Source: a bacterium
GTDB lineage: Bacteria; Bdellovibrionota; Bacteriovoracia; Bacteriovoracales; Bacteriovoracaceae
DNA: 64,000 nucleotides
Assembly (NCBI GenBank): GCA_030425045.1
Contig: JAUHVL010000004.1
Span: 124,001 to 188,000 of the forward strand
Direction: 5' to 3'
The notes beneath the pieces were generated by a model that saw only the letters and a program-made list of their open reading frames with translations, did not search any database and was not told the DNA's origin. Made by a program: the position numbers and the translations under genes. Positions 1,051-51,452 of this stretch are shown here, in pieces (within the stretch, counting starts at the first letter, position 1; the number at the start of each line of letters is the position of its first letter).

Positions 1051-2448
1051 TTGGGTATTTCTTTTGGTTCCATTAATACCGGTCTTCCCAAAGACATCGT
1101 AAAGCAAATTGTTGCTGCCGAAAAGATTCCTTTGCAAAAAATGGAAGCTCGTAAGGAAAAAATCAAAAATAAGAAAAAGCTCGTTCAAGAACTCATCGAC
1201 ATGATGAAAAACGTCAAAACAAATCTCAATAATAATGCCAGTGCAAGATCACTTAGAGAATTGAAAGTCGACACCAATAGCGACCTCGTTGATGTTGCAT
1301 TCGATAAGAATAAGGTAAACCCAGGTAACTATCGTTTTGAAGTTGTCAGGCTAGCTCAAAAGTCTTCAGCTGTAAGCTCTGGCTTTAGTAGCAAGGATGA
1401 TACATATACCGGTGTTGGTTTTATTCAATACTTTATGCCAAATGGTGATAGCAGAGAAATTTATATCGATGAAAACAATGCTACCCTTCAGGGAATCGCC
1501 AATCTTATTAATAAAGATGCTGACAATGGACTTAATGCAACTGTTATCGATGATGGTTCTGGTAGTGAAACTCCATGGAGATTACTTCTTAGTTTGAATG
1601 GAACCGGAGACAACGAAAGAGCAGAGTTTCCTTACTTTTACTTTGTGGATGGTGAAGAAGATTTTTATATCGATGAAGAAAGGCCTGCTCAGGATGCCAT
1701 TGTTAAGATTGATGGTTTTGAAGTTGAAGTACCTGGTAATAAAGTTGATGAGCTCATTCCTGGAGTCACCCTAGATCTGAAAAAAGCTCAGCCTGGTGAG
1801 GAATTCTCTATTAATATTGCCGATGATGGCGAAGCAGTTTCTGCCAAAATTACAGATTTTGTCGATATCGTGAATGAAGTTTTAAAATTTATTAATGAGC
1901 AAAACAGGCTTGATGAAAACTCCGATACAGCATCAACCCTTGGTGGTGACCTTCTTTTACAAAACCTAGAATCAAGGATTCGCTCTGTCGTTTTTAAAGA
2001 TATAAAAACAAATAGTGGCTTCAAAAGAATTGGTGATCTCGGAATTGTTTTCAACAGAAGTGGTCTTCTTGAGGTTGACCAACAAAAGTTTGATTCTGTT
2101 GTGGCCAAAAGTTATAGCCTTGTTTCAGAAATTTTAGTGGGAACAACTCTAGCTGATGGAACTTATTCCAAAGGATTTATTGGAAATTTTTCAGATGTCG
2201 TTGATGGTGCCCTTAGATATCCAAACGGAATCCTCACCACAAGATCAAAAGGTATCCAAAGTAATATTGATCAAATTGATCGAAGAATAGAACAGAGACA
2301 AAGAGTAATTGACCAAAAAGAGCGAACTTTAAAAGATAAGTTTGCAAGATTAGAAAGTACAATTTCTAGAATCAAAGGTCAGGGGGCAGGAATTGCCGCT
2401 TTAGGGGCTGGAGCAGGGGCTGGCCCACAAATTCCTCAATTAGGTTAA
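1051..2448 (+). CDS. fliD: Flagellar filament capping protein FliD
   Basis: FliD caps the growing flagellar filament and helps flagellin subunits fold and insert at the tip. The 465-residue product has the usual length. It shows the N-terminal heptad-rich segment (about residues 20-60), a variable central region and a C-terminal coiled coil near residues 400-445 rich in Arg, Gln and Lys. It ends in an unusual Gly/Ala-rich tail (GAGAGAGPQIPQLG). The start is TTG at 1051, seven bases after GGAGG at 1039-1043; no in-frame ATG fits as well. fliS follows at once, the standard fliD-fliS order. Confidence 0.9.
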   Translation: MGISFGSINTGLPKDIVKQIVAAEKIPLQKMEARKEKIKNKKKLVQELIDMMKNVKTNLNNNASARSLRELKVDTNSDLVDVAFDKNKVNPGNYRFEVVRLAQKSSAVSSGFSSKDDTYTGVGFIQYFMPNGDSREIYIDENNATLQGIANLINKDADNGLNATVIDDGSGSETPWRLLLSLNGTGDNERAEFPYFYFVDGEEDFYIDEERPAQDAIVKIDGFEVEVPGNKVDELIPGVTLDLKKAQPGEEFSINIADDGEAVSAKITDFVDIVNEVLKFINEQNRLDENSDTASTLGGDLLLQNLESRIRSVVFKDIKTNSGFKRIGDLGIVFNRSGLLEVDQQKFDSVVAKSYSLVSEILVGTTLADGTYSKGFIGNFSDVVDGALRYPNGILTTRSKGIQSNIDQIDRRIEQRQRVIDQKERTLKDKFARLESTISRIKGQGAGIAALGAGAGAGPQIPQLG

Positions 2449-2491
2449 AATAGTTTAGGAGTAACATAATGAATCCATGTAAGGAGGAAAA

Positions 2492-2893
2492 ATGAGTTAC
2501 GGTTTAGGAGCATATAAGAAAACCTCTATACATACAGCAAGTAAAGAGCAGATTCTACTTATGCTGTATCAAGCAGCTATTAAGCACTGTAAAAAAGCAA
2601 TCACTGCTATTGAAGAAAACAATATCGGAAAGAAAGGCGAACATATTGGCAAGCTACAAGATATCGTTATCGAGCTAAATAATAGTCTAGACTTCGAAGT
2701 TGGTGGTGATGTAGCAAAAGAGCTTTCCTCACTTTATGACTATTTAATTTATAGTTCTACTCAAGCGAATATAAAAATAGACAAGGAACCTCTTGAGGGT
2801 GCCCTCAGTGTTCTCAATACTCTTTACGAAGGTTGGTCTGAGGCCATTAAAAACCTTCGAAAAGAAAAGTCTACCACCGAAAAAGCTGGCTAA
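2492..2893 (+). CDS. fliS: Flagellin-specific export chaperone FliS
   Basis: FliS binds the disordered C-terminus of unassembled flagellin, keeps it from polymerising in the cytoplasm and hands it to the export gate. The 133-residue, mostly helical product starts with the family-typical MSYGLGAYKKTSI, followed by ASKEQILLMLYQAAI. Its length matches the family. An AAGGAGG ribosome binding site lies at 2481-2487. It sits between fliD and a FliT-like gene. The two client flagellins lie farther along on the opposite strand. Confidence 0.92.
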   Translation: MSYGLGAYKKTSIHTASKEQILLMLYQAAIKHCKKAITAIEENNIGKKGEHIGKLQDIVIELNNSLDFEVGGDVAKELSSLYDYLIYSSTQANIKIDKEPLEGALSVLNTLYEGWSEAIKNLRKEKSTTEKAG

Positions 2894-2908
2894 AATAAAG
2901 GTATCCTC

Positions 2909-3319
2909 ATGAACTTAATGGAAGAACTAGAAGAGAAAATAATCAGACACCTCTCAAATATTGACCTTGTCAAAATGGCGTCACAAAAACTGCTCAACTC
3001 TTGTATAGAAGGTGACATTGAGCGAATCGATTTCTTTAGTAAAAACAGAGGTCGCTTGGTTAACTTTGTTCAAAACCAGCAAAATGAAATTGAAGGTATA
3101 ATTGACCAATACAATACAGATCTCAGCACTCCAGAAGCAGTAGATATTCTCAAAGCATGGATACATGATATCTCTATCAAAACAAATGACATCGCAAACC
3201 TAGATGAAGACATTTTATCTGAACTAAATAAAGAAAAAGATAAAACTACTCAGGAAATTGCAACGACCTTTAAAAACAAAGATAAGTTTAAAGGTTATAA
3301 TCTTAATAAAGTTAGATAA
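2909..3319 (+). CDS. FliT-like flagellar chaperone (by position)
   Basis: A 136-residue acidic, all-helical protein encoded 15 bases after fliS. In many bacteria this slot holds FliT, the small export chaperone of FliD. The sequence (MNLMEELEEKIIRHLSNIDLVKMASQKLL, then further amphipathic helices and a Lys-rich tail) has the size and helical character of FliT-like proteins, but no diagnostic motif was seen. The assignment rests on position and general character. An unrelated helical flagellar accessory protein would fit equally well. Confidence 0.5.
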   Translation: MNLMEELEEKIIRHLSNIDLVKMASQKLLNSCIEGDIERIDFFSKNRGRLVNFVQNQQNEIEGIIDQYNTDLSTPEAVDILKAWIHDISIKTNDIANLDEDILSELNKEKDKTTQEIATTFKNKDKFKGYNLNKVR

Positions 3320-3474
3320 CAGAGTACCCGACTTAAACATTTTCCTAGACGAAAACAACTCTGTAATTGGTACATCCCAATTGACATCGGTCGCTTATTA
3401 TGAGGAAATATAGGCTAGTAAGGACCAATGAATGGTTTCTTTCTATAACCATAAATTCTTAAGGAAGAGGAGAT

Positions 3475-3546
3475 ATGGTCACCATAGTTCAACTTATAAA
3501 CATTCTAAAAAATATAAAAAACACTCGGAGTGGAAATGTACTCTAA
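3475..3546 (+). CDS. Possible 23-residue leader peptide
   Basis: The ATG at 3475 follows a purine-rich ribosome binding site (AGGAAGAGGAG, 3462-3472). It opens a 23-codon frame, MVTIVQLINILKNIKNTRSG and three more residues, that ends in TAA at 3544-3546. The stop overlaps the start of the next gene (ATG 3536) by 11 bases, which would couple translation of the two. The stretch 3320-3474 before it holds nothing else I can support. It may be a fortuitous frame. Confidence 0.3.
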   Translation: MVTIVQLINILKNIKNTRSGNVL

Positions 3547-4198
3547 TTTTACAATTAATATTAAAGAAACGAGAAGTGGAGACAGGATTCCCGTCATTAA
3601 TGATATTCATCTTCACTCTGCTTATAAGCCCGTTAGTGAAGCTGAAAACTTTGCTGATTTAAAACGAGAAACTCTTGAAGCAAACTCAAACGTCTTAATT
3701 TTTGGCCTTGGTTTTGGTTATCACCTAAGAGCAATTGAAAATATTCTAAAAGAAAATCATAAAAGCTACAGAATCATTGTCATCGAACCTGTTAAAGCAA
3801 TTATCGATGCCTTTTATGAAAATGGTTTTTCAATCGATGACGATCATATTCAAGTTTATAATTTTGAAACCATTGAGGAATATTATCTTACAGAGGACCT
3901 GGTTGAATTTATGGTCAGTAAGCCTGCTGTGATTTCACATCCATCAAGTTTTAAATTATGCCAAGATTTTTATACTTCTTTTATGAAGCATAACGCTTCA
4001 ACGAACATAAGTGATGTCGAAGCTTTAATAAAGAGTGAACCTTTAAAGAAGTATTTTGAAAATATTGAACAAGGTGAACTTCCACAGCTATTGAGAGAGC
4101 TTTCTCAAACTAACAGAATTGAATCGGCTGAAGAGTTTTTACTTATGTCTTACAAAGAAATTGTAACAACAAATAGTACTGGGGAATTAAATGAGTGA
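3536..4198 (+). CDS. Maf/DUF115-like motility-associated protein, short form
   Basis: The 220-residue product contains a nucleotide-binding-like segment, NVLIFGLGFGYHLRAIENIL, followed by IIVIEPVKAIIDAF. This resembles the N-terminal part of Maf (motility accessory factor, MAF_flag10/DUF115) proteins, which transfer nonulosonic-acid sugars to flagellin in Campylobacter and Aeromonas. Full Maf proteins are about 600 residues, so this is only a fragment-sized relative. It is followed by two glycosyltransferases. The start is placed at ATG 3536, five bases after GGAG; a GTG at 3530 is possible. It overlaps the next gene by eight bases (ATGAGTGA). Confidence 0.55.
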   Translation: MYSNFTINIKETRSGDRIPVINDIHLHSAYKPVSEAENFADLKRETLEANSNVLIFGLGFGYHLRAIENILKENHKSYRIIVIEPVKAIIDAFYENGFSIDDDHIQVYNFETIEEYYLTEDLVEFMVSKPAVISHPSSFKLCQDFYTSFMKHNASTNISDVEALIKSEPLKKYFENIEQGELPQLLRELSQTNRIESAEEFLLMSYKEIVTTNSTGELNE

Positions 4199-5846
4199 TA
4201 TACTAATTGTTAACCTAAAGAGGCATGGAGACATATTACAAATGTCTCATCTTATCAATTCAATTCATGAGAACAACCCAAGTTCAAATATAAGTGTATT
4301 AGTTTTTGATGAATTCAAAAAATCAGCGAGTATTATCAATCACGTTAAAAAGGTTTACACAATTCCTAGGAAAAAAATTATTAGTTATCACAAGAATGAT
4401 ATCTATAGTGATGCATGGGGGCTTAATAAATTAACGGAATCTCTCTCTTCGCTTGAAAAAACAACGTGGGATAGAGTCGTTAACTACTCAAACGACAGAA
4501 GTAGTTCTTATATTTGTAGCTATATTGATTTCCAACAAGGTCATGGCGAGATAGCTGGTACATCATTTAATTTAGAAAATAACACTCAAAATTATAATGA
4601 CTGGCAAATTATTTATAATAATACGACTGACCTCATTTCAAACTCCGCCTTCAATATTAACGACCTCACTCACCTTATGACAGATACAGCGCCCGTTACT
4701 GCTGAAGACAAACTCAAAACTAATGCTAATCACAATAAAACGGCTTTTAAGAACTTCAATCAAATTAGAAAAATAAATCAAAATAAGACAAATGATGTTC
4801 AGATTGTTGGAGTTCAGCTTAAATCTTCAATGGCCTCAAAAGATATTCCAGAAGAAGTTCTCGTTAACACTATTAAAAAACTTCATGAAGACAGTCGAAC
4901 GATACCAATCCTACTCCATTCACCTGCCGAAGATGAGAAAGAGTATACGGAAAGAATAAATGCAGAATTTGGGAAAAAATTAATTACCGTTGAATCTGAT
5001 ATTATTGCCCTTACCTCTGTCTTAATTAATATCGATGTTGTCATCACTCCTGATACGCTAACAAAGCACATGGCAGACAATACAGATACTCCTTGTATTG
5101 AGGTATCTCTCGGTCCTGCACCGCTTTTTCTACAAAGTAGTATCAATCAAAGAAGCTTAGTCATTACACTTAACCCCGACACAAGAAATTACGAATCGAA
5201 AGAAGCTCTCTCACCTATTCATTTTGATTCACTAAACGAAACACTCAATAATACGATTGAACACTTTTTAAATCCTAGTATTGAATTAGATATTCCTGGC
5301 CCATGGGCAGTCTTCAAGCCAGTTAAGGATCGTATTGGTACGACACTTATGCCTATTGCAGGCTCGATTAACGATCAATCTGAATATACACGCTTTTTCA
5401 CAAGAGGAATTGTCTCTCAAATGCTGACCGGTATATCTTTTGATATTACCGCTTTTAATGACCTCGATAACCCTAATCTTAATCAATGGGTAGAAGATCA
5501 AAAGCAAAGTTTTACTAATATCTCGAGGACACTTCTCAACACTATCAGAGCTCTTCATCAAATGAAAACTGATCAAGTTAATACCAATACATTTGTAGAG
5601 TGCCTTGATATTCTTTTTGATCATTCAAAAGAAGAGACGCTGGCAAGAATACCACTTCTTATCTTTAAATCTCGACTTGAGTCACTTAGTTCAATAAATA
5701 AAGATCAGGGCGTAAAAGAAGTAAATGAGCTTCTTTTCACTCTTAAAAATGACATCCAACTAATTATAAATGAGCTCAATAAAGTTGGAATGGACGAAGA
5801 AATTGCTGAACTTCAAAGAACAGCTACTGGTGAAACCAATGTCTGA
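4191..5846 (+). CDS. Glycosyltransferase family 9 (heptosyltransferase-like) with C-terminal extension
   Basis: The N-terminus ILIVNLKRHGDILQMSHLIN is the start of a GT9 (ADP-heptose:LPS heptosyltransferase-like) Rossmann domain. The second-domain motif VVITPDTLTKHMADNTDTPCIEV (about residues 282-304) corresponds to the family's Asp-x-x-x-x-His nucleotide-sugar region. About 200 helical C-terminal residues are extra compared with WaaC or WaaF. Its position directly behind fliD-fliS and a Maf-like gene suggests it glycosylates flagellin rather than LPS; that is inference. It overlaps both neighbours by eight bases. Confidence 0.75.
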   Translation: MSDILIVNLKRHGDILQMSHLINSIHENNPSSNISVLVFDEFKKSASIINHVKKVYTIPRKKIISYHKNDIYSDAWGLNKLTESLSSLEKTTWDRVVNYSNDRSSSYICSYIDFQQGHGEIAGTSFNLENNTQNYNDWQIIYNNTTDLISNSAFNINDLTHLMTDTAPVTAEDKLKTNANHNKTAFKNFNQIRKINQNKTNDVQIVGVQLKSSMASKDIPEEVLVNTIKKLHEDSRTIPILLHSPAEDEKEYTERINAEFGKKLITVESDIIALTSVLINIDVVITPDTLTKHMADNTDTPCIEVSLGPAPLFLQSSINQRSLVITLNPDTRNYESKEALSPIHFDSLNETLNNTIEHFLNPSIELDIPGPWAVFKPVKDRIGTTLMPIAGSINDQSEYTRFFTRGIVSQMLTGISFDITAFNDLDNPNLNQWVEDQKQSFTNISRTLLNTIRALHQMKTDQVNTNTFVECLDILFDHSKEETLARIPLLIFKSRLESLSSINKDQGVKEVNELLFTLKNDIQLIINELNKVGMDEEIAELQRTATGETNV

Positions 5847-5973
5847 TGAGAACAAATTACAACAACTCTTTTCTTCATTAGAAGAAAAAGTAAACTCAGG
5901 TAAGCAACTAGTGGAGGATGATTTATACCACTTACTGATTGCCAGCCTCATTCAAGAAGAAATCAATGAGTGA
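5839..5973 (+). CDS. Small 44-residue protein, translationally coupled on both sides
   Basis: The ATG at 5839 sits inside ATGTCTGA, the stop overlap of the upstream glycosyltransferase. Its own stop at 5971-5973 sits inside ATGAGTGA, the start of the next glycosyltransferase. The acidic helical product begins MSDENKLQQLFSSLEEKV and ends QEEINE. The same eight-base overlap occurs at other junctions of this operon, which supports translation. No function is recognised; a subunit or adaptor of the flanking transferases is conceivable. Confidence 0.55.
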   Translation: MSDENKLQQLFSSLEEKVNSGKQLVEDDLYHLLIASLIQEEINE

Positions 5974-7618
5974 CCAAAAAACTAAATGCATCTGTATTGT
6001 TCAGGTCACAAGACTTGGAGACCTCTTACAAACAATGCAAGCCTGTGAAGGGTTAAAAGAAAACCTTCCCCATCTAAAATTAAAACTTGTTGCGAGAGAA
6101 AAATTTGCAAAGCCGCTAGACTTTCTTTTGCGAAAAGTTTTTGATGAAATTTACTATTTAAACTTCAAAGAAGCCTTTGCGAAAGACAATGATCCAGAGA
6201 GTTTAACAAAATATCTTAAGAATTTTGTCTCAAACGTTTCATCTGAAAAAATTGATGCTCTTTTAAATCTCAGCTTTTCTAATAGTGCGAATTATTTATG
6301 TAGCCTCATTCAAGCTGACAATAGACTTGGAACATATTTCAATTTAAACCACGAAATCGTCGTTTATGACCCTTGGTCACAATATTTATACAGCAATGTT
6401 ATGGGTGGATCCTTTAATAGTTTCTCCCTCGTTGATATTTATAAGAAAATTATCGGAAATACGTTTCCAAGAAAACAAACAGAACTTAAAAAGCATGACA
6501 AAAATAAAATTGTCGTCCACCCCTTTGCCAGTTTAGACAAAAAGCATTGGAAGCCTTCAAAGTGGAAGGAAATCATCTACAAACTTTTAAAAAACAATTC
6601 TAACTTAACAGTTCAAATCGTGGGATCACCCCATGAAATGAAGCTTGCAGATGAAATTTTTAATGATCCTATCATTAAGCCTTTTCATGGGCAGTTGATC
6701 AATCTGACTGGAAAAACAAGCATAGAGCAACTTTATAATACAATTGAAGAATCAAGCCATTTTATCGGTCATGACTCAATGGTAAGTCATCTAGCAAAAA
6801 TTGCTCAACTTCCAACTCTTACCTTTTCGCTTGGAACTGTAAGACCAGAAGAAACGATACCGTATGGGGAATACAGCTTTGCTGTATCTCCAAAAACAAG
6901 CTGCTTTCCGTGCTTTCCTGATGATGCCTGTAGCTTTTATCAATGTCATGCCGATATATCTTATCAAGCTGCTTACGAACTCATTGTTTCTTTTGTAAAT
7001 CACAATGAACTTGCCCCTGAAAAGCTAAAGAAAAGTATCTCTGATTTTCATCTCAGTTCACTAAATATTTTTAAAGGAAGATTTACTGAAGATAATAATC
7101 TCTTCCTTGAAAAAATTAATGATCACGAACTAGATTCAAAATCGACAATTAAACTTTTTTTAAGGATGGCTTGGCTTTATCGCCTTTCTGAAGCTGAAGA
7201 GAATCATCGTTTTCCAAAGCTAACCAAACAAACATATAACGAATTGTTTACAACTATCAAAGGGATCAAGTATCTACGCGATCTTTTTATTTTTGGTCAA
7301 AAGTACTCTCAAGAAGTGTTAAATGAACTAAGTGAACAAAGTCCAAATGTGGCAACACTACAAGAGAAATCTGAAAAAATTGATGAGATTGACAAGCTTA
7401 TTTCAATGTTAAAAACAGCTTACCCACTCTTAACACCAATTATCGATTACTCAAACGTTATCAAGGCTAATATCCCAGGTGAAAACCTTGTTGAGCTTTC
7501 ATATGGAAGCTGTATGGCCTATAAAAACAGTGAAACAGTCTTATCAATTGTATATGAACTTCTAGAAAACACTTTGAGAGAATCTAAGTTCTCAAAATCT
7601 GCGCCCAAGGAGAGGTAA
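5966..7618 (+). CDS. Second glycosyltransferase family 9 protein
   Basis: The 550-residue product starts with the GT9 signature CICIVQVTRLGDLLQTMQAC. It carries IVVHPFASLDKKHWKPSKW, which matches the HPFAS.D..HWKP nucleotide-sugar-binding region of heptosyltransferases. SSHFIGHDSMVSHLAKIAQLPTL is the His-containing second-domain motif. A cysteine cluster (CFPCFPDDACSFYQC) follows near residue 315. The C-terminal third is helical and unassigned. The start is ATG 5966, which overlaps the stop of the small upstream gene; an upstream TTG at 5939 is less likely. It is probably a flagellin-modifying transferase. Confidence 0.75.
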   Translation: MSDQKTKCICIVQVTRLGDLLQTMQACEGLKENLPHLKLKLVAREKFAKPLDFLLRKVFDEIYYLNFKEAFAKDNDPESLTKYLKNFVSNVSSEKIDALLNLSFSNSANYLCSLIQADNRLGTYFNLNHEIVVYDPWSQYLYSNVMGGSFNSFSLVDIYKKIIGNTFPRKQTELKKHDKNKIVVHPFASLDKKHWKPSKWKEIIYKLLKNNSNLTVQIVGSPHEMKLADEIFNDPIIKPFHGQLINLTGKTSIEQLYNTIEESSHFIGHDSMVSHLAKIAQLPTLTFSLGTVRPEETIPYGEYSFAVSPKTSCFPCFPDDACSFYQCHADISYQAAYELIVSFVNHNELAPEKLKKSISDFHLSSLNIFKGRFTEDNNLFLEKINDHELDSKSTIKLFLRMAWLYRLSEAEENHRFPKLTKQTYNELFTTIKGIKYLRDLFIFGQKYSQEVLNELSEQSPNVATLQEKSEKIDEIDKLISMLKTAYPLLTPIIDYSNVIKANIPGENLVELSYGSCMAYKNSETVLSIVYELLENTLRESKFSKSAPKER

Positions 7619-14544: not shown

Positions 14545-15375
14545 TTACCCTACTAATCTAAGGGCAGCGTTTGGTATATTGTTAGCTTGCGCTAATGTAG
14601 AGATACCAGCATTCTTGATCACCTGACCGGCAGCAAGGTTGGCTGACTCTTGAGCAACATCCACATCTTGGATAACAGATCTTGCACTATCTTGGTTAAT
14701 CGTTTGAACTTCTAAGTTCGAAACAGTTGACTGAAGTCTTGACTGGATCGCACCAAGTTCGGCCCTTTGACTTGAGATATTATTGATTGCCTCGTCAATA
14801 ACCTCAATTGATCCTAGAGCATCACTCTTTTCAGTGATCCCAGTTCCAGATACCCCAATTGATGAAGCAGTTGCGTTTGTTACATCAGATTGGAATGTAA
14901 TTCTGTTTTGTTCTCCAGCGAAAGATCCAACTTGAAAGTCGAGCGATTCACCTTCACCATTTAATAGGTTAGACCCGTTAAATGTTGTTGATTGTGAAAT
15001 ACGATCAATTTCTGTTGTCAGCTGTTGGTATTCTTTATCCAGCAACCCTCTTTCATTTTCACCTACAGTATCCGATGCGGCCTGAACAGTAAGCTCTCTC
15101 ATTCTAATAAGAATGTTTGAAACCTCATTCAACCCACCTTCTGCAGTTTGCACTAGTGAGATACCATCGTTAGCATTCCGAGTAGCTTGTCTTAAACCTT
15201 TGGTTTGCGCTTCTAAGTTTTTAGAGATCGCAAGACCAGCGGCATCGTCAGCTGCTTTGGTAATACGTTTACCTGATGACAACTTGTCTAGTGACTTGTC
15301 TGTCTGGTTAGACACTTCTCGCAAGTTCTTTTGAACTGACTGCGAGGCAATGTTCGTAGCAATTCTTAAGCCCAT
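14545..15375 (-). CDS. fliC: Flagellin 1
   Basis: Filament subunit of 276 residues. It has the conserved N-terminal D0/D1 block (MGLRIATNIASQSVQKNLRE, LSSGKRITKAADDAAGLAIS, NDGISLVQTAEGGLNEVSNI) and the C-terminal block (RAELGAIQSRLQSTVSNLE, ending AQANNIPNAALRLVG). The short central region means there is almost no surface D2/D3 domain, typical of compact flagellins. It is transcribed alone from a sigma-28-like promoter into its own terminator. A paralogue of 277 residues lies at 20748-21581. Confidence 0.95.
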   Translation of the reverse strand: MGLRIATNIASQSVQKNLREVSNQTDKSLDKLSSGKRITKAADDAAGLAISKNLEAQTKGLRQATRNANDGISLVQTAEGGLNEVSNILIRMRELTVQAASDTVGENERGLLDKEYQQLTTEIDRISQSTTFNGSNLLNGEGESLDFQVGSFAGEQNRITFQSDVTNATASSIGVSGTGITEKSDALGSIEVIDEAINNISSQRAELGAIQSRLQSTVSNLEVQTINQDSARSVIQDVDVAQESANLAAGQVIKNAGISTLAQANNIPNAALRLVG

Positions 15376-15598: not shown

Positions 15599-16459
15599 TT
15601 AATCAATAAATTGTCTTAACCAATCCCTATATGCCTGAATATTTGTAAAGCCTGCGATTCCTTTACATAAAACCGAGCCTCCAGCGGCATAAGACGTTAT
15701 ACCAACCAATAGAGGATCCTTACCTTGCTCATAGTAGACAAGTGGACCACCACTATCTCCAAGGCAATTGCCAGTTTCAGGAATCATCCCTGTCGTGATG
15801 AGAACATTCGGACTATGGTTGAGAAGAAACTCAATCATCTCATCACTCATATTAAAATCTTGAATTAGGTTTTGATTAAAAACATTATCATTCATATCAA
15901 AAGTTGTCGTACCAATTGCCTTAACTTCAACTTCCATAAGCTCTTTAGAAAAAATTGGAAAATTACTTGGTGGTTCTTTTGAACCCCAACCACTTGAGAT
16001 TAATTTTCCATCAATACCTTTAAAGTTTTCAGAGAAGTTAAAATCATTCTTTGTATTATCAGGAATACGAATTGTCTTAACTTCTGAACTTAAAGATATT
16101 GGTCTTTTTAATTTTAGTATGGCGATATCGTGGGCCAAATTCTTCTCTTTGAAATCAGGATGAATATGAATACTCTTTACTCTTGCTAACCTTCTAAGTT
16201 TTTTCATTTCTCCAGTTGAAGACTTACCGTAGATGCGAAAGTCTCTTGCACCAAATGCATCCACACAGTGAGCAGCTGTAATAACAAGATCATTACGAAT
16301 TAAACTTGCCCCACAGAGATGTCCACCAAAACGTGTTTGTAATGATAACTGCCAGGGGTGTTCCTTATTAGTAGTTTGTGTTCCTCCAATGACTCTATCA
16401 GAAGCATATGAAGTAAACATGATAAATGAAATGAGGAGAGAAAATATAAGTCGATCCAT
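15599..16459 (-). CDS. Secreted chymotrypsin-fold serine protease (S1 family)
   Basis: A signal peptide (residues 1-19, ending SYA) is followed by SDR and then VIGG, the classical S1 activation site. The catalytic triad is His64 (VITAAHC), Asp111 (AHDIAIL) and Ser235 (CLGDSGGPL). The position equivalent to trypsin Asp189, six residues before the Ser, is Gly229. Trypsin-like Arg/Lys preference is therefore not predicted. Exported S1 proteases are abundant in predatory Bdellovibrionota, where they help digest prey protein. Confidence 0.9.
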   Translation of the reverse strand: MDRLIFSLLISFIMFTSYASDRVIGGTQTTNKEHPWQLSLQTRFGGHLCGASLIRNDLVITAAHCVDAFGARDFRIYGKSSTGEMKKLRRLARVKSIHIHPDFKEKNLAHDIAILKLKRPISLSSEVKTIRIPDNTKNDFNFSENFKGIDGKLISSGWGSKEPPSNFPIFSKELMEVEVKAIGTTTFDMNDNVFNQNLIQDFNMSDEMIEFLLNHSPNVLITTGMIPETGNCLGDSGGPLVYYEQGKDPLLVGITSYAAGGSVLCKGIAGFTNIQAYRDWLRQFID

Positions 16460-16527: not shown

Positions 16528-17298
16528 TTAAAAGAGGAAGCCAAATCCCAAACTAAAAGACAGATCATTTTGCTCAAACTCTGCTGGCTCAGTAATATTA
16601 ATCTCTCTCGCGCCCTGCTTAGCAAATACTGACAAATCGTCACTTTGATTTTGCAAGTAATCAACAGAAATAAATGACATCAAACTTTTACTTTCATCCA
16701 TCATTCTCACACCAAGAGAATGCTGCAATGATGTTCTTTTATTATTATACGTTAACTGAATAGGAACCACGCCCCCGTTTACCTGTCCGTAAGAAAGAGC
16801 GTATTCAATATCGTGAACTATATATTGAGTACCAACAAATGGTTGAATTCTTAACCCCAAACCTTTCATATTTAAGTTAGCAGTTAGCCCTCCTCCATAA
16901 ACATTCCCGCTAGCACTATCTTCAAATTGAATATTTTCAGTATTAAGAACATCACTATCAGAACCACGAATCAATCCATATCGCCCTGTGGCCGTAAACG
17001 AGATATAGTTACTGGCCATAATTTCTTTATTAACCTGAAGTGACATCACATGCATTGTAAGATCACTTTCATACCCCATTGGAAAAAACGATTCCGAATC
17101 TGATTTTTCACCATGAGCAATTTTTGTTCCTAGGTTTTGATAACCACCAGCAATCGACCATGTCGAAGGCTCTTCAGGCTTAGAGATTTTTTTACTTACT
17201 AAAAAATCATGAATATCAACTCTTTTAGCTTTCTTCTTTTGCTCAGCAAATGTACTCACCATAAAAAGTGACAATACTAAAACCTTAAAGATGTTCAT
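16528..17298 (-). CDS. Probable outer-membrane beta-barrel protein, unknown function
   Basis: A 256-residue protein with a signal peptide (residues 1-18, ending TFA). A Lys-rich linker follows, then alternating hydrophobic and polar strands such as ISFTATGRYGLIRG, VYGGGLTANLNMKGLGLRIQPFVG and SLQHSLGVRMM. It ends in LSFSLGFGFLF, with a terminal Phe typical of outer-membrane barrels recognised by BamA. No family is recognised. It is encoded 68 bases upstream of the protease gene and may be cotranscribed with it. Confidence 0.6.
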   Translation of the reverse strand: MNIFKVLVLSLFMVSTFAEQKKKAKRVDIHDFLVSKKISKPEEPSTWSIAGGYQNLGTKIAHGEKSDSESFFPMGYESDLTMHVMSLQVNKEIMASNYISFTATGRYGLIRGSDSDVLNTENIQFEDSASGNVYGGGLTANLNMKGLGLRIQPFVGTQYIVHDIEYALSYGQVNGGVVPIQLTYNNKRTSLQHSLGVRMMDESKSLMSFISVDYLQNQSDDLSVFAKQGAREINITEPAEFEQNDLSFSLGFGFLF

Positions 17299-17419: not shown

Positions 17420-18493
17420 GTGAAGTTTATCTTATCGTTATTTATCTTATTTTTAACTCTGGAACTTATCGGCTATATCGGTACGCATATACTTCATCAT
17501 CAAATCACAATACTTAGAAACCAAAATTACTCTCAAAAAGAAATTAACAAATATAAAAGGATTTACAGTTTTGAACGTGGATGGATAGCAAGTAAGTCGA
17601 GGTCAAATAATAACTGGGATTCAGATATTTTTTGTTATGGAGATTCTTTTACCTATGGTGACGATGTCGAACAAGATCAAACATGGAGCTATTTTCTCGA
17701 AAATAGTTTAAATAAATCTGTAAATAACTTAGGCGTCAACGGCTATGGGTTAGATCAAATCTACTATTCACTAAAAGCAGATATCTCTAAAATTAATAAT
17801 AAAATTATAATCATTTCTTTTATCTCTAATGATATTAGACGCTCTGTATCCGTTTACCGAAAGTTTTTAAGTCCTCTATCTCAAAATCCTCTAACAAAAC
17901 CTCGAGTTATCTATGACAAAGATAAAAAGATGCTTATTAAAATAGCTAACCCTATTAAAAGTATTCGTGACGTCAGCAAGATCAAAAAATCTAGTTTTTA
18001 TCTCAATATCGTTGAACAAGATTTTTGGGCAAAACAAATCCCCCCCTTTCAAGCTTCATTTCCCTTTAGCAGACTATTAGTTCACCCTTCTCTTTTAAAT
18101 GAGCTTAAATATATTTTTCTCAACAAAGAATCTCTTTGGGAAAAGAGATCAAATAATTGGTTTTTTAAACAAGGAGAAGCTCAGGATATTTTTTCATCTT
18201 TGTTAAAATCTATGGAGAAATTAAGTAAAGATCATGGTAACCAAATAATATTCAATTATTTACCGAAACAAAGTGAAGTAGACAAGGTAAGTGAAACGAT
18301 TGTGCCTTTAAATAATTTTCTAGAGATTTGCCGTAAAAACAATTTTATATGCACCTCTCCACTGCTTTCAAAAAATATCAAACTTAATAAAGATTTAGAT
18401 TTCTCTAAAAGGTTGCACTACAATGCAAAGGGAAATAAAAAAGTTGCTCAGTATTTGTCGAGCAAGCTAAATACATTAACGAAAAATGATTAA
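17420..18493 (+). CDS. SGNH/GDSL-type hydrolase, membrane-anchored
   Basis: The 357-residue protein has an N-terminal hydrophobic anchor (residues 2-22). SGNH block I is CYGDSFTYGDDVE with Ser76, a Gly-containing block is NNLGVNGYGLDQ near 103-113, block III Asn is in SFISNDIRRS (about Asn137) and the C-terminal His is in LHYNAKGNKKVAQYL. Such hydrolases usually remove or transfer acetyl groups on glycans, outside the cytoplasm. The start is GTG 17420. It overlaps the radical SAM gene by eight bases. A paralogue is at 19637-20689. Confidence 0.75.
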   Translation: MKFILSLFILFLTLELIGYIGTHILHHQITILRNQNYSQKEINKYKRIYSFERGWIASKSRSNNNWDSDIFCYGDSFTYGDDVEQDQTWSYFLENSLNKSVNNLGVNGYGLDQIYYSLKADISKINNKIIIISFISNDIRRSVSVYRKFLSPLSQNPLTKPRVIYDKDKKMLIKIANPIKSIRDVSKIKKSSFYLNIVEQDFWAKQIPPFQASFPFSRLLVHPSLLNELKYIFLNKESLWEKRSNNWFFKQGEAQDIFSSLLKSMEKLSKDHGNQIIFNYLPKQSEVDKVSETIVPLNNFLEICRKNNFICTSPLLSKNIKLNKDLDFSKRLHYNAKGNKKVAQYLSSKLNTLTKND

Positions 18494-19631
18494 TAAAGAT
18501 AACAAAAGCTATTGCTCACTTCTCTGGAATGGAATAACAATAAATGCGAATGGAGTTATTCGTCCCTGCTGTCGTTTTGATGTTTATGATACTTCTATTA
18601 AAGAGCTTTCAACTACTAACCTTTTAGAAAGCTATAATACTTCTTTTTTTGAATCTGTAAGAAAAAACGCATTAGAAGATAAAACAATTTCTGCTTGTCA
18701 TAAATGTTACAAAGAAGAAAAGCACGGCATTACAAGTCTTAGAGAACATCATAATAAACTTGCATATAATACTCATTCAAATCTCTTCACATCAGCCGAA
18801 AATATTGAATATATCGAATTATTCTTGGGAAGAGAATGCAATTTAGCATGTCACACTTGTAAACCTCTTCTTAGTTCAACTTGGGAAAAAGAAGTCAAAA
18901 AACTAGGCTGGACACAGGAACTTGTTGATTTAAACTGGAAATCTCAAGATTTTGACTTCAAAACAAGATCGTTTTCACTAGCGGGATATGAAAACTTAAA
19001 AGAAATTAAATTTGTTGGCGGTGAAACACTCATTAACGATCGTCATTTAGAGATTTTAAACACTATTCCTAGTCAAACTCGCAAAAATATTATTGTTGAT
19101 TATTATACAAATGGAACTATTCCATTTAAGGACTCTTACTATAATACGTGGAAGCATTTCAAGCAGGTTAAAGTCAGATTTAGTATCGATGGCCATAAAG
19201 AACTTAACGAATACATACGTTATCCTTCAAAATGGAATGTTATTGAAAGTAATATTAAGGATTGCTTATCAACTTACAGAGAGAATGTTCACTTTAGGCT
19301 TCATACAACAGTCAGCATTCTAAATATTTTTTCGCTTAATAAAATAAGTGAGTGGTGGGATGAAATCTCTAAAAACTCTCCATGCTCCACAGAAGAGGTT
19401 AAGTTTAATCTTTTACATGATCCAAGCTTTTTATCTATTGCAACTCTTAAACAATTGACAACCAGTTACGATAAACTCGTTCAATCAGAAAAATGGCTCT
19501 CTTTCATTGAACATTCCGTTATAGAAGAAAAACATCTGAAGCTATTGAAACACTTCTTGAACAATCTTGATCAGCAAAGAGGTAACAGTTTGAAGGGTGT
19601 GATTCCAGACCTTTCAGACATCCTATTTTAA
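18486..19631 (+). CDS. Radical SAM protein with N-terminal twitch-like cysteine region
   Basis: Binds a [4Fe-4S] cluster through CNLACHTC (Cys118, Cys122, Cys125). The other barrel motifs are IKFVGGETLIN (the GGE SAM-binding motif) and VRFSIDGHKELNEYIR. Ahead of the core lie CSLLWNG, GVIRPCCRF and ACHKCYKEE (Cys10, 28, 29, 71, 74), which resemble an auxiliary cluster placed N-terminally, as in the 'twitch domain-containing radical SAM' group. Substrate unknown. It is cotranscribed with an SGNH hydrolase and ends five bases from a convergent paralogue of that hydrolase. Confidence 0.85.
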   Translation: MINKDNKSYCSLLWNGITINANGVIRPCCRFDVYDTSIKELSTTNLLESYNTSFFESVRKNALEDKTISACHKCYKEEKHGITSLREHHNKLAYNTHSNLFTSAENIEYIELFLGRECNLACHTCKPLLSSTWEKEVKKLGWTQELVDLNWKSQDFDFKTRSFSLAGYENLKEIKFVGGETLINDRHLEILNTIPSQTRKNIIVDYYTNGTIPFKDSYYNTWKHFKQVKVRFSIDGHKELNEYIRYPSKWNVIESNIKDCLSTYRENVHFRLHTTVSILNIFSLNKISEWWDEISKNSPCSTEEVKFNLLHDPSFLSIATLKQLTTSYDKLVQSEKWLSFIEHSVIEEKHLKLLKHFLNNLDQQRGNSLKGVIPDLSDILF

Positions 19632-19636
19632 TGGAG

Positions 19637-20689
19637 TTAAATATATTCCAATAAATACTGAGCAACTTTTTTATTGCCATTCTTATTTAAATGTCCATTT
19701 TTTGCATAATCATTCTTATCCAGCTTAACCTCACTACTTCCTTTAAAAAAATCAACACACTTCATCTTTTCTCTTCTACAAATATTTTTAAAAACGCTTA
19801 AGGGCAGATATTTTTCATCTTTTAAGCTCAGCTCGTTTTTTTTTGGAATATATACAAAAACAAGTTCGTTGTTATTAACCGAGGCAGTTTTTTTAAATTC
19901 TTTTAATAAAAATTCCAACAGCTCTACAGCCTCTTCTTTTGAATATACCTGAGCCATATCTCTCAACTCCCCACTATATCCACTTAGTAACCTTTGCTTC
20001 ACTAATTTAACCAAAGTTTCATTAATGTAATATCTAGAGAAAGGGAATTCTTTTTTAACAGGAGGATATAGGGTACCCCAATAATCATATTTTACTAAAC
20101 CCATTACATATTTTGATTTCGTTACATTCTTTATTTTCCCAACATCCTTTATTGGATTTTGAAAAATAGTATAACTATCATCATTATATTCTTTTAAAAA
20201 TCGAGGCTTAGTTAAGACAAATTTTGTTTTCGGCTGTACAAACTTTCTGTAAACGGACAATGATCTTCCCAAACTATTTGTTATTATTGTTATAACAACT
20301 TTTTTTCCTTGAAGGCGAGATAAATTGTTTTTATACCTTAAAAGAGACTGATCTAGACCATAACCTCTTACACCGAGATTACTTGTTTTAACACTGCTCA
20401 ATTTCTCATAAAAATACGGAAATGATTCATTATATTCAACTTCGTCACCGTAGGTAAAAGAATCACCAAAGAAATAAACTTCAGAAAGCCAATTCACATC
20501 TTCCCTGGTTCTACTTTCTCTCCACCCCAAGTTAAAATCATATATTTTTTCAAATTTCTTTAATGTAGATCGATTTAACGCTTTATCATCTAGAAATACA
20601 ATTTCATCTTTTAAAATTTTCGGCATAAAAAATGCTGAAAATTCAAGGGCAACAAGTATCGAAAATATATAAATAAAAGCTTTCCTCAT
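19637..20689 (-). CDS. SGNH/GDSL-type hydrolase, paralogue of 17420-18493
   Basis: A 350-residue protein with an N-terminal anchor, FFGDSFTYGDEVE (Ser77), NLGVRGYGLDQ, a conserved SVYRKF segment, PPVKKEFPFSR and NGHLNKNGNKKVAQYL with the catalytic His. It aligns with the other SGNH protein along its whole length. The Asp after the block III Asn is replaced (ITNSLGRS instead of ISNDIRRS). It lies 58 bases downstream of flagellin 2 on the same strand and starts five bases after that gene's terminator. Confidence 0.75.
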   Translation of the reverse strand: MRKAFIYIFSILVALEFSAFFMPKILKDEIVFLDDKALNRSTLKKFEKIYDFNLGWRESRTREDVNWLSEVYFFGDSFTYGDEVEYNESFPYFYEKLSSVKTSNLGVRGYGLDQSLLRYKNNLSRLQGKKVVITIITNSLGRSLSVYRKFVQPKTKFVLTKPRFLKEYNDDSYTIFQNPIKDVGKIKNVTKSKYVMGLVKYDYWGTLYPPVKKEFPFSRYYINETLVKLVKQRLLSGYSGELRDMAQVYSKEEAVELLEFLLKEFKKTASVNNNELVFVYIPKKNELSLKDEKYLPLSVFKNICRREKMKCVDFFKGSSEVKLDKNDYAKNGHLNKNGNKKVAQYLLEYI

Positions 20690-20693
20690 TAAG

Positions 20694-20722
20694 TAAAAAG
20701 AAGCCCCTCTTTTCAGAGGGGC
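20694..20722 (-). terminator. Intrinsic terminator of flagellin 2
   Basis: On the minus strand GCCCCTCT and AGAGGGGC form a perfect eight-pair stem with a GAAA tetraloop, followed by TTCTTTTT. The T-run ends five bases before the start codon of the SGNH paralogue, so readthrough would be needed to express that gene from the flagellin promoter. Confidence 0.85.
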
Positions 20723-20747: not shown

Positions 20748-21581
20748 TTATCCAAGTAGTCCAAGAGCTTGGTTACCAGATGTGTTCGCTTGAGCTAATA
20801 CTGAAGTACCAGAAGCTGATAAGATATTTTGCTTTGCTAGTTCAGCAGATTGCTTAGCGATATCTGTATCACGAATTCTTGAGTTCGCCGCAGACATATT
20901 CTCTGTTTGAATCTCTAAGTTTCTCACAGTAGATTGTAATCTGTTTTGAAGGGCACCAAGTTGGGCACGGTTCGTGTTTACAGAGTTAATCGCCTGGTCA
21001 ATTTTCTCAAGGTTTTCCTGTGAAGAACCTTTCGTGAGAACATTTAAACCTTGAATTCCAATTGCTTCAGTTTTTACACTTTGTGTAGCTGGATTGTATT
21101 GGATTCTGTCATTAGCTGGAACATTGTTAATCCCAATTTGAAAATCCATCGATTCACCTTGTCCATTTAACAATTGTTTCTCGTTAAATGTCGTCGACGT
21201 AGCAATTCTTTCAACCTCAGTTACTAGTTGTTGAAATTCCATATCACTATAAGCTCTTTCTTTGTCACCAATTGTATCTGATGCAGATTGAACTGATAGT
21301 TCTCTTAGTCTAATAAGGATATTATTTACTTCGTTTAGTCCACCTTCAGCAGTCTGAATTAATGAGATACCGTCACCAGCGTTTCTTGTCGCTTGTTGAG
21401 TACCACGAATATTTGACTTTAACTTTTCTGAAATCGCTAAACCAGCAGCATCGTCACCGGCTTTATTGATTCGACTTCCTGAAGCTAATTTTTCTAGTGC
21501 TGAACTTTGTTGTCTTTTGGTTGCACCCAAACTTCTTTGAGCTGCTAATGATTGGACGTTAGTTGCAATTCTTAAACCCAT
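20748..21581 (-). CDS. Flagellin 2
   Basis: Filament subunit of 277 residues and paralogue of flagellin 1. The N-terminal block is MGLRIATNVQSLAAQRSLGA, LASGSRINKAGDDAAGLAIS and GDGISLIQTAEGGLNEVNNI. The C-terminal block is RAQLGALQNRLQSTVRNLEI, ending ANTSGNQALGLLG. The central region differs most (for example NGQGESMDFQIGINNVPAND). A long leader of about 100 bases with two hairpins and two purine-rich Shine-Dalgarno-like sites precedes the start, unlike flagellin 1. Confidence 0.95.
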   Translation of the reverse strand: MGLRIATNVQSLAAQRSLGATKRQQSSALEKLASGSRINKAGDDAAGLAISEKLKSNIRGTQQATRNAGDGISLIQTAEGGLNEVNNILIRLRELSVQSASDTIGDKERAYSDMEFQQLVTEVERIATSTTFNEKQLLNGQGESMDFQIGINNVPANDRIQYNPATQSVKTEAIGIQGLNVLTKGSSQENLEKIDQAINSVNTNRAQLGALQNRLQSTVRNLEIQTENMSAANSRIRDTDIAKQSAELAKQNILSASGTSVLAQANTSGNQALGLLG

Positions 21582-49780: not shown

Positions 49781-50878
49781 TTAGAGCTCCTCAAAGCTGC
49801 GGTTTTTTTCGCTCGAGCTGGTATAACTTATCTCTCCACAATTCATAGCACAGACTGATGACTTCTTTTTGTCGATATGATCGAAGTCACGCCAGCTTTT
49901 AACCAACTCTTTTTTAAACCATTTATTATTGAGAACTTCTTTTAGAGACTTTGACTTAAGACAATTGAAGTATTCTCCGTATTCCGTCACTAAATTTTTA
50001 TGCATTTGTTCTGTTCTTTTATCAAGAGGCTTATATCCAATGCCAGCTAACCAAGTGCAAGGCCAAAGTTTTCCTTCAAAATCTAGAAACAAGCCATCTC
50101 CATGAGCCTTAAACTTACAATTAATTGATGTTTTATCTACGTACTCATTCCAATCTTTATAAGTTTCTTTTACCTTTTCAAGTTCTTTAACAACCGAGCC
50201 TTTGTTTTTTTCCTCTTTCGGTTTTTCTACTTTTTCTTTTAATTCTTCAAAATCTTTAATTTCAACAAAACGATTTGTTCTTTTAACTGAAAAACGAATA
50301 AAACCCATTTCCTTAGCAAGCTTCCTAACGTCTTCAACTTGATGCTCGTTATGTTTAAAAACAAGCATATCCCATCGGGCCCTTCCACCTGTTTCGATAA
50401 AAGCCGTAACGTTTCTCATTATCGTTTTCCAATTAGAATTCACTCGATAGATATGATTTGTATCCTCTAGCCCATCGATTGAAAAAACGACTAAATCTTT
50501 TTTCCCATTTAAAACTTTTGCTACTTCTCTCCACCAGTCAGCATCTCGCATACTTCCACTTGTCACAAGATCTATACGCTCAAGACCAAGTGTCTTTAAA
50601 TATTTTAACGCTGGTAAAAAAGTATCACTGGCAATAGCGTCCCCAAAGTTTCCACAAAAAAACACTCTTTTTAAATTGGGAAAGTTATCTCTATTAATAA
50701 TTTTTTTGTAATCATCTAAAGATAATTCTTTTCGAGGTAAAACAGAATCAAACTTACCGTTGTATACTCTTCCACATTGAGGACAAAGTAGGTTGCAAAA
50801 CGTTGTATGATCGACTTGAAGATATTCAACCTTCTTTGCATCTGCATATCTATAATCTTTAAAAAGATCCTTGAGCAT
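49781..50878 (-). CDS. Radical SAM protein with SPASM-like C-terminus
   Basis: The 365-residue protein has the [4Fe-4S] motif FCNLLCPQCGR (Cys28, Cys32, Cys35), RVFFCGNFGDAIAS as the SAM-contact region, and LVVFSIDGLED. C-terminal cysteines (INCKFKAHG, LWPCTWLAG, SSVCAMNCGE) fit an auxiliary-cluster SPASM domain, as in peptide-modifying or sugar-modifying enzymes. Residues 205-235 form a Lys/Glu-rich insertion. Substrate unknown. It ends four bases from the next upstream gene, an SDR-like protein. Confidence 0.82.
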   Translation of the reverse strand: MLKDLFKDYRYADAKKVEYLQVDHTTFCNLLCPQCGRVYNGKFDSVLPRKELSLDDYKKIINRDNFPNLKRVFFCGNFGDAIASDTFLPALKYLKTLGLERIDLVTSGSMRDADWWREVAKVLNGKKDLVVFSIDGLEDTNHIYRVNSNWKTIMRNVTAFIETGGRARWDMLVFKHNEHQVEDVRKLAKEMGFIRFSVKRTNRFVEIKDFEELKEKVEKPKEEKNKGSVVKELEKVKETYKDWNEYVDKTSINCKFKAHGDGLFLDFEGKLWPCTWLAGIGYKPLDKRTEQMHKNLVTEYGEYFNCLKSKSLKEVLNNKWFKKELVKSWRDFDHIDKKKSSVCAMNCGEISYTSSSEKNRSFEEL

Positions 50879-50882
50879 ATTT

Positions 50883-51452
50883 TTAATTCTTTTTTAACTG
50901 AACGGGATCAATCGACATCTCATTAATATTTACCGTTAAAGGCTGTGCCAAAAGCCACGAGATAACTTCTGTTATATAATTTAAATCAAGCTTATCAACA
51001 TCAGGATGCTTATCATTTGCTTTGATCGTATTGAGATGGCCTACAGATAAATAGGTAATTCTAAAATTTATAGGTTTTTCAGAATGCCCGCCACTACAGA
51101 GGTTTCCAAGATTTCGACAATAAGCTTTTAATGCTTTTTTCTCAATTGGGTAGATCCACTTGGTGCCTTTTACAGGAGTATCAGCACTACTGCCCATAAC
51201 AACAATTCTTCCAGCATGCTCATTTTCGACCCAAGCATTAATCACTTTTTCAAGAAGCTTGACCTGATTAAAACTATGAAGCGTACTACAACTGATATAG
51301 ACATCATGATTAAGTGTTTCTTTTGCAAACCGATCTTGATCATCTTCTTTTTGAAGCTTCCAATCATTAGACCTACTAGCAAACATTGCTTCAGGATATT
51401 TTTCTTTGATAGCACTTGCTAAACCATACTCTCCATTTCCACTTACAATCAT
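50883..51452 (-). CDS. Short SDR-like NAD(P)-binding protein
   Basis: A 189-residue Rossmann-fold protein: MIVSGNGEYGLASAIKEKYP (a dinucleotide loop lacking the full TGxxxGIG), DVYISCSTLHSFNQV (NNAG-like strand) and RIVVMGSSADTPVKG, then a Tyr/Lys pair in WIYPIEKKALKAY and INFRITYLSVGHLNT. These follow the order of short-chain dehydrogenases, but at about three quarters of the usual length. Together with the radical SAM gene it probably forms a two-gene operon acting on the same unknown substrate. Confidence 0.6.
   Translation of the reverse strand: MIVSGNGEYGLASAIKEKYPEAMFASRSNDWKLQKEDDQDRFAKETLNHDVYISCSTLHSFNQVKLLEKVINAWVENEHAGRIVVMGSSADTPVKGTKWIYPIEKKALKAYCRNLGNLCSGGHSEKPINFRITYLSVGHLNTIKANDKHPDVDKLDLNYITEVISWLLAQPLTVNINEMSIDPVQLKKN

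Follow-up and report, generated by a model that had tools for sequence, protein, structure and literature searches.

We analyzed a group of three genes in a 64,000-nucleotide stretch of DNA (the window; contig JAUHVL010000004.1, positions 124,001 to 188,000) from a bacterium of the family Bacteriovoracaceae, phylum Bdellovibrionota. Two genes for SGNH hydrolase-like proteins, SGNH1 and SGNH2, flank a gene for a radical S-adenosylmethionine (SAM) enzyme of family NF033640 (N_Twi_rSAM), whose members we refer to as N-twitch genes. With somewhat less than even confidence, we suggest that the trio is a small lineage-specific cassette that tailors an envelope glycan by a radical step plus the transfer or removal of an acyl group. 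The initial annotation had proposed tailoring of either a surface glycan or a flagellin glycan. The surface-glycan role is the best reading, because SGNH and N-twitch genes are repeatedly neighbors, mostly in glycan islands; the flagellin role fell away. What the analysis shows directly is the gene structure, domains, conserved ligands, predicted folds, the insertion of the trio, and the recurrent linkage of SGNH and N-twitch genes.

We found that SGNH genes are close to N-twitch genes more often than expected. In 16 genomes, seven SGNH genes had an N-twitch gene at a distance of 500 bp or less, compared to 0.28 expected under uniform placement; one of the genomes (G247) had been picked up by a search for SGNH, and N-twitch loci supplied some of the seeds for the SGNH profile. 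Without the host genome, the count was 3 vs. 0.22 expected. The host genome has 12 N-twitch genes above the NF033640 cut-off and a second SGNH cassette on contig C79 (L062), in the order N-twitch, SGNH (convergent), N-twitch, SGNH. Direct SGNH/N-twitch neighbors were found in five genomes of Bdellovibrionota: the host (the window and L062), G002 (L075), G027 (L164), G225 (L171), and G247 (L150). The paired SGNH genes belong to different clades, and the paired N-twitch genes to unrelated branches (seven label changes for seven rows). Because the paired genes are scattered over different branches in the SGNH tree as well as in the N-twitch tree, the pairing seems to have arisen repeatedly. In G247, an SGNH gene of the window clade lies a few bases behind an N-twitch gene, in an island of at least 10 N-twitch genes. 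By eye, this partner, whose gene contains a masked gap, seems to belong to another N-twitch branch. Both kinds of gene favor glycan islands, so that a shared neighborhood accounts for part of the excess. N-twitch genes share islands with glycosyltransferase and carbamoyltransferase genes.

In viruses, the link between SGNH and N-twitch genes is at the level of the island, because there was an excess at 10 kb and none at 300 bases. When only the SGNH pair was used as the query, IMG/VR yielded 23 contigs, some of them near copies of one another. Fifteen carried 1-5 N-twitch genes within 8 kb, and several of the 15 had carbamoyltransferases of the NodU/CmcH type. A search with N-twitch only gave 80 kept loci, 75 of which had more than one N-twitch gene; the fetched flanks contained an SGNH gene in 23 of the 80 loci and a carbamoyltransferase gene in 15. 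Whole contigs were used for 27 virus records chosen by N-twitch alone, with at least ~150 N-twitch places listed. On these contigs, 48 of 57 SGNH places (a few of which may be two pieces of one gene) were within 10 kb of the N-twitch matches listed; 26 were expected, and the observed number was reached in 0/1000 rotations.

Dense arrays of N-twitch genes were seen in two Bdellovibrionota genomes: in G225, with more than 10 within 30 kb (L171-L172, G225:C1:740001-780000), and in G247, with approximately 10 on a 55-kb contig (L173-L174, G247:C275). On contig C9 of the host (L065 5106-8164), a carbamoyltransferase gene lies directly before an N-twitch radical SAM gene. Elsewhere in the window (49781-51452), a radical SAM gene adjoins a short gene for an unassigned protein of 189 amino acids (aa), and by eye a similar pair lies inside an N-twitch island of G014 (L092 13622-15317). 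Large aquatic virus contigs (L108-L130, L179-L258) contain tandem N-twitch and other radical SAM genes together with SGNH and carbamoyltransferase genes. Several of these virus gene types match, by eye, those of the host island at C34:160-193 kb (L060, L061), e.g., L207 compared to L061. Two virus open reading frames (ORFs) of ~850 aa (L130 1673-4222, L122 1114-3672) look like fusions of two N-twitch units. We found no literature linking carbamoyltransferase, radical SAM, and cyanophage together.

The trio in the window is compact. SGNH1 (17420-18493, + strand; 357 aa) starts with GTG and encodes an N-terminal hydrophobic anchor helix and an SGNH hydrolase domain. The radical SAM gene (18486-19631, + strand; 381 aa) encodes an NF033640 protein with an N-terminal twitch domain. 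SGNH2 (19637-20689, - strand; 350 aa), the sister paralogue of SGNH1, is convergent with the radical SAM gene. All three frames are open and full-length. SGNH1 and the radical SAM gene overlap by exactly 8 bases, and exactly 5 bases separate the convergent ends of the radical SAM gene and SGNH2; the initial annotation was correct in every one of these coordinates, the overlap, and the gap. The overlap suggests that SGNH1 and the radical SAM gene are translationally coupled. The pairwise alignment of SGNH1 with SGNH2 spans 346 residues, 35% of them identical (E = 6e-76), which bears out the earlier description of two full-length SGNH paralogues flanking a radical SAM gene. The shared segments named in that description (GDSFTYGD, GYGLDQ, SVYRKF, FPFSR, and NKKVAQYL) are all within columns identical between the two proteins.

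The radical SAM protein is a full-length match to NF033640 in NCBIfam (272.6 bits; curated cut-off 170). The Pfam scan placed a SPASM iron-sulfur domain at its N-terminus. The core motif CNLACHTC contains C118, C122, and C125 (CxxxCxxC), and the N-terminal auxiliary-cysteine region described earlier is indeed present, with C10, C28, C71, and C74. Among 30 relatives, six of the seven cluster cysteines (C10, C71, C74, C118, C122, and C125) were invariant and C28 was nearly so. The protein has no N-terminal hydrophobic segment, unlike both SGNH proteins. In profile comparisons, the N-terminal domain matched the twitch domain of BtrN in sequence (E = 4-5e-5). BtrN is a sugar-alcohol dehydrogenase of butirosin biosynthesis and acts on an aminoglycoside precursor. 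The radical SAM protein also scored against the PapB and Nif11-peptide maturase families (NCBIfam scan) and against SkfB and TigE chains.

The structure model of the radical SAM protein was confident (pLDDT 86.7). In a fold search, its core fit enzymes of sugars and nucleotides (DesII, BlsE, viperin) and enzymes of peptides (SuiB, SkfB, anSME) about equally; many radical SAM folds tied, and the search was not decisive in naming a substrate. With regard to a viperin-type defense role, the PADLOC match (pVip) was weak and partial, covering only the radical SAM core (E = 1.1e-6, 26.3 bits). No assigned reaction or substrate for NF033640 was found in the literature or in the family record. Membership in a characterized family with a different substrate, which would have counted against the initial annotation, was not seen.

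The SGNH proteins both contain a Pfam GDSL lipase domain; SGNH1 scored above the PF00657 cut-off and SGNH2 below both cut-offs. The AlphaFold2 model of SGNH1 was confident (pLDDT 88.9), and its three-layer fold is clearly that of SGNH hydrolases (best Z 19.1; 199 of 999 chains at Z ≥ 8). Residues of the catalytic type are Ser76, His333, and Asn137. The block-I serine (Ser76) and block-V histidine (His333) were invariant or nearly so among relatives, and the catalytic serine and histidine are kept in both SGNH1 and SGNH2. The usual block-V aspartate (DxxH/DxH) is absent, with lysine at position -3 in SGNH1 (Lys330) and in SGNH2. Structure prediction, which had been proposed as a way to place the catalytic triads, recovered the SGNH fold. 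The aspartate has been lost across most of the SGNH clade, and the outgroup rows keep it. Some CE2 esterases also lack the block-V aspartate, and a Ser-His dyad can work (PMC9487903).

Residues 2-25 of SGNH1 form a hydrophobic helix in the model, and SGNH2 has a similar N-terminal hydrophobic stretch. Because of these segments, SGNH1 and SGNH2 are likely anchored in the inner membrane and predicted to face the periplasm. With the SGNH proteins so placed and the radical SAM protein without an anchor, the inner membrane would separate the two steps. One SGNH relative, in G019 (L073), adjoins a gene for an MBOAT acyltransferase.

We found no exact orthologues of the trio in 59 relatives of the host, for the radical SAM protein, or in 129 genomes of the family, for SGNH1. 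The host (3.97 Mb) was the sole member of its genus among the relatives searched. None of the 59 contained a protein more than 36% identical to the radical SAM protein. Peptide patterns found no close relatives of it in Genome Taxonomy Database (GTDB) genomes, and phage records gave only distant radical SAM proteins of Vibrio phages (23-27% identity). In the 129 family genomes, SGNH1 had one long match besides SGNH2 (G117, 27%); the others covered short stretches. SGNH1 and SGNH2 are sisters in the tree (support 100/97). The nearest SGNH relatives were in G222, G247, and G225, all of other families, and the nearest radical SAM relatives were in G222 and G247 (quick tree method, support ≤94). 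Two genomes from outside the host family, G222 and G247, thus contain nearest relatives of both SGNH1 and the radical SAM protein, and in G247 both kinds of enzyme are on one island contig. The expected conservation of the SGNH/radical SAM linkage was found for the association between the two classes and not for the exact pair.

The trio is part of a later five-gene insert between two flagellin genes. Flagellin 1 (14545-15375, - strand) and flagellin 2 (20748-21581, - strand) border a syntenic block, and the interval between them in the window is 5372 bases and contains five genes. The initial annotation had the position of the trio right, and omitted two further genes and a terminator. The two genes lie between flagellin 1 and the trio: one for a trypsin-like protease (15599-16459, - strand), which is outside the proposed system, and one for a 256-aa signal-peptide protein without a family match (16528-17298, - strand), divergent from SGNH1. 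The intrinsic terminator behind flagellin 2 (20703-20722, - strand) is at the edge of the insert, separates SGNH2 from flagellin 2, and sits 14 bases before the start of SGNH2. A similar stem-loop follows flagellin 2 in G002.

We compared the locus with five genomes of the host family (G014, G002, G027, G022, and G033). The order LpxH, flagellin 1, flagellin 2, RfaE2, RDD, RsmE, PrmA is kept in all five where the contig reaches; apart from flagellin and RDD, these names are what we presume from reading the sequences. In four of the five, no gene lies between the two flagellin genes; the distance between them, measured in two of the four, is 224 and 282 bases. The exception, G014, has a third flagellin gene and two unrelated genes at the insert site. 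SGNH1 and SGNH2 have the lowest G+C content among the larger genes of the window (29-30%; z -2.0 and -2.3). As part of a later insert, the trio's position between the flagellins therefore says little about its function. N-twitch genes were near flagellin genes at chance level in the 16 genomes (1 vs. 1.2 expected within 5 kb; 2 vs. 2.25 within 10 kb). We reject flagellin linkage as a conserved feature on the basis of the synteny and of these counts, and the position of the trio next to flagellar genes looks accidental. The lesson of the synteny is that a striking neighborhood, such as that between two flagellin genes, can reflect where genes were inserted rather than what they do.

Other genes near flagellar genes were also seen. 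Behind FliD and FliS, the window contains genes for a Maf_flag10_N-like protein and two GT9 glycosyltransferases (3530-7618), and GT9 genes are at the corresponding place in G002, G014, and G022. For a role in glycosylating flagellin, the genes at 3530-7618 are better candidates than the trio is. In a genome of another family, an SGNH gene is directly upstream of a flagellin gene, with approximately 570 bases between the matches (L268, G247:C2:40001-52134).

In the cassette that we favor, the trio would have been recruited from a pool of N-twitch and SGNH genes in the glycan islands of Bdellovibrionota. Together with two unrelated genes, it would have entered between flagellin genes that lie side by side in relatives. 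A cytoplasmic radical SAM enzyme, with the SAM cluster and one auxiliary N-terminal cluster, would oxidize or epimerize a carbon of a sugar precursor. After export, the SGNH proteins, anchored in the inner membrane and facing the periplasm, would remove or transfer an acyl group of the glycan by means of the Ser-His pair. We infer the substrate, as well as the chemistry of the two steps and which of them comes first.

Several results count against an envelope-glycan cassette. No glycosyltransferase gene adjoins the trio, and the nearest glycosyltransferase-like genes are those at 3530-7618. DesII, BlsE, viperin, and peptide maturases are within approximately 1 Z unit of one another in the fold search, and no sugar enzyme was singled out. 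Without the block-V aspartate, hydrolysis by the SGNH proteins may be weak or may not occur. No MBOAT gene was found among the neighbors of the trio that were scanned, a search that did not cover the whole genome. The bacterial count is biased upward by the choice of G247 and of some SGNH seeds through SGNH/N-twitch hits. In viruses, direct adjacency at 300 bp did not exceed chance (8 vs. 6.3, among the N-twitch matches listed).

These results might also indicate that the three genes arrived together from an island as passengers and have no joint function here. The trio is without an orthologue in the family, its SGNH genes are low in G+C content, and this site is occupied by unrelated genes in G014, all as expected for such an insert. 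We nevertheless consider this unlikely, as all three frames are intact with their ligands conserved, the genes are tightly packed where they overlap and where they converge, both copies of the SGNH duplication have been retained though they are just 35% identical, and SGNH/N-twitch pairing recurs elsewhere. Tailoring of a flagellin-specific glycan, in which the trio modifies a sugar on the two neighboring flagellins, is in our view the least probable explanation. Its appeal is in the neighborhood. The trio sits between two flagellin genes; the window at 1051-7618 holds FliD, FliS, the Maf_flag10_N-like protein (21.4 bits; cut-off 23.5), and the two GT9 genes; an N-twitch/SGNH pair in G027 is 7-9 kb from a flagellin gene; and an SGNH gene in G247 adjoins one. 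However, the trio is an insertion into a flagellin pair that is otherwise adjacent, G014 holds unrelated genes at that site, N-twitch genes are no more frequent near flagellin than expected (1 vs. 1.2 at 5 kb), and a terminator lies between flagellin 2 and SGNH2. The initial proposal of flagellin-glycan tailoring is not supported.

The scores of the radical SAM protein against PapB, Nif11-peptide maturases, SkfB, and TigE are consistent with maturation of a peptide or protein, in which the radical SAM enzyme modifies the substrate and an SGNH protein of the CgnD type cuts or trims the product. CgnD frees the core scaffold of a ribosomally synthesized and post-translationally modified peptide (RiPP) from its leader (PMC10070186). 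The alignment of SGNH1 with CgnD (Z 18.3 over 214 residues) was the longest in the top ten; many SGNH folds scored alike, however, and Z did not single out CgnD. The gaps between the trio and its neighbors and within the trio (121, 5, and 58 bases) contain no precursor-type ORF of at least 20 aa, and so no RiPP precursor gene next to the maturase (distant precursors were not tested). The N-terminus of the radical SAM protein is a twitch domain and not a precursor-recognition domain, and the anchors of the SGNH proteins seem to place them outside the cytoplasm. Maturation of a peptide is, on balance, unlikely.

Returning to the envelope-glycan cassette, the trio could be the smallest unit of something larger. 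It is possible, although we propose it tentatively, that N-twitch and SGNH genes, often with carbamoyltransferases or other radical SAM enzymes, make up an undescribed modular decoration system in Bdellovibrionota and aquatic viruses that would modify a single surface molecule by a radical step plus an acyl step. The arrays of this putative system have at least 10 N-twitch genes in Bdellovibrionota genomes, and similar arrays are found in large aquatic viruses. NF033640 has many copies per genome in several Bdellovibrionota, forms arrays in aquatic virus records, and has no known reaction. The substrate of the family is easier to find in a compact one-copy unit with two coupled SGNH partners, outside the large islands, than in the arrays. 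What deserves follow-up is the wider association between N-twitch and SGNH genes in the islands of bacteria and viruses.

Several known systems resemble the trio in part. The hypervariable, glycosyltransferase-rich host-recognition islands of pelagimyophages are reported to carry radical SAM cassettes, and 12 radical SAM genes have been described in the genome of a T4-like virus (PMC7029224, PMC5332604). These are radical SAM arrays in marine viruses, like those in L108-L130 and L179-L258; unlike our results, the available text of the reports names neither the N-twitch subfamily, an association with SGNH genes, nor arrays in Bdellovibrionota. BtrN shares with the radical SAM profile the twitch domain, which is C-terminal in BtrN and N-terminal here, and similarity in one domain does not fix a substrate. 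Compared to other members of NF033640, the window protein has the same N-terminal auxiliary-cluster region and CxxxCxxC core, but is on a long branch and is at most 32% identical to the nearest rows of the tree. SGNH1 and SGNH2 resemble SGNH/GDSL hydrolases (Lipase_GDSL, Lipase_GDSL_2, CE2) in fold (Z up to 19.1), block-I serine, and block-V histidine. They differ in the membrane anchor, a central insert, the loss of the aspartate in most of the clade, and low identity to any solved structure. CgnD of crocagin biosynthesis has the same fold (Z 18.3 over 214 residues), and its Ser79 and His328 are placed similarly to Ser76 and His333 of SGNH1; in contrast, it keeps Asp325 where SGNH1 has Lys330, and it acts in a RiPP cluster (PMC10070186). 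Finally, although the trio has a radical SAM partner and no adjoining MBOAT gene, it is similar to the MBOAT-SGNH pairs (PatA/PatB, AlgI/AlgJ/AlgX) in that its SGNH proteins are probably anchored in the periplasm as partners in an envelope-polymer system.

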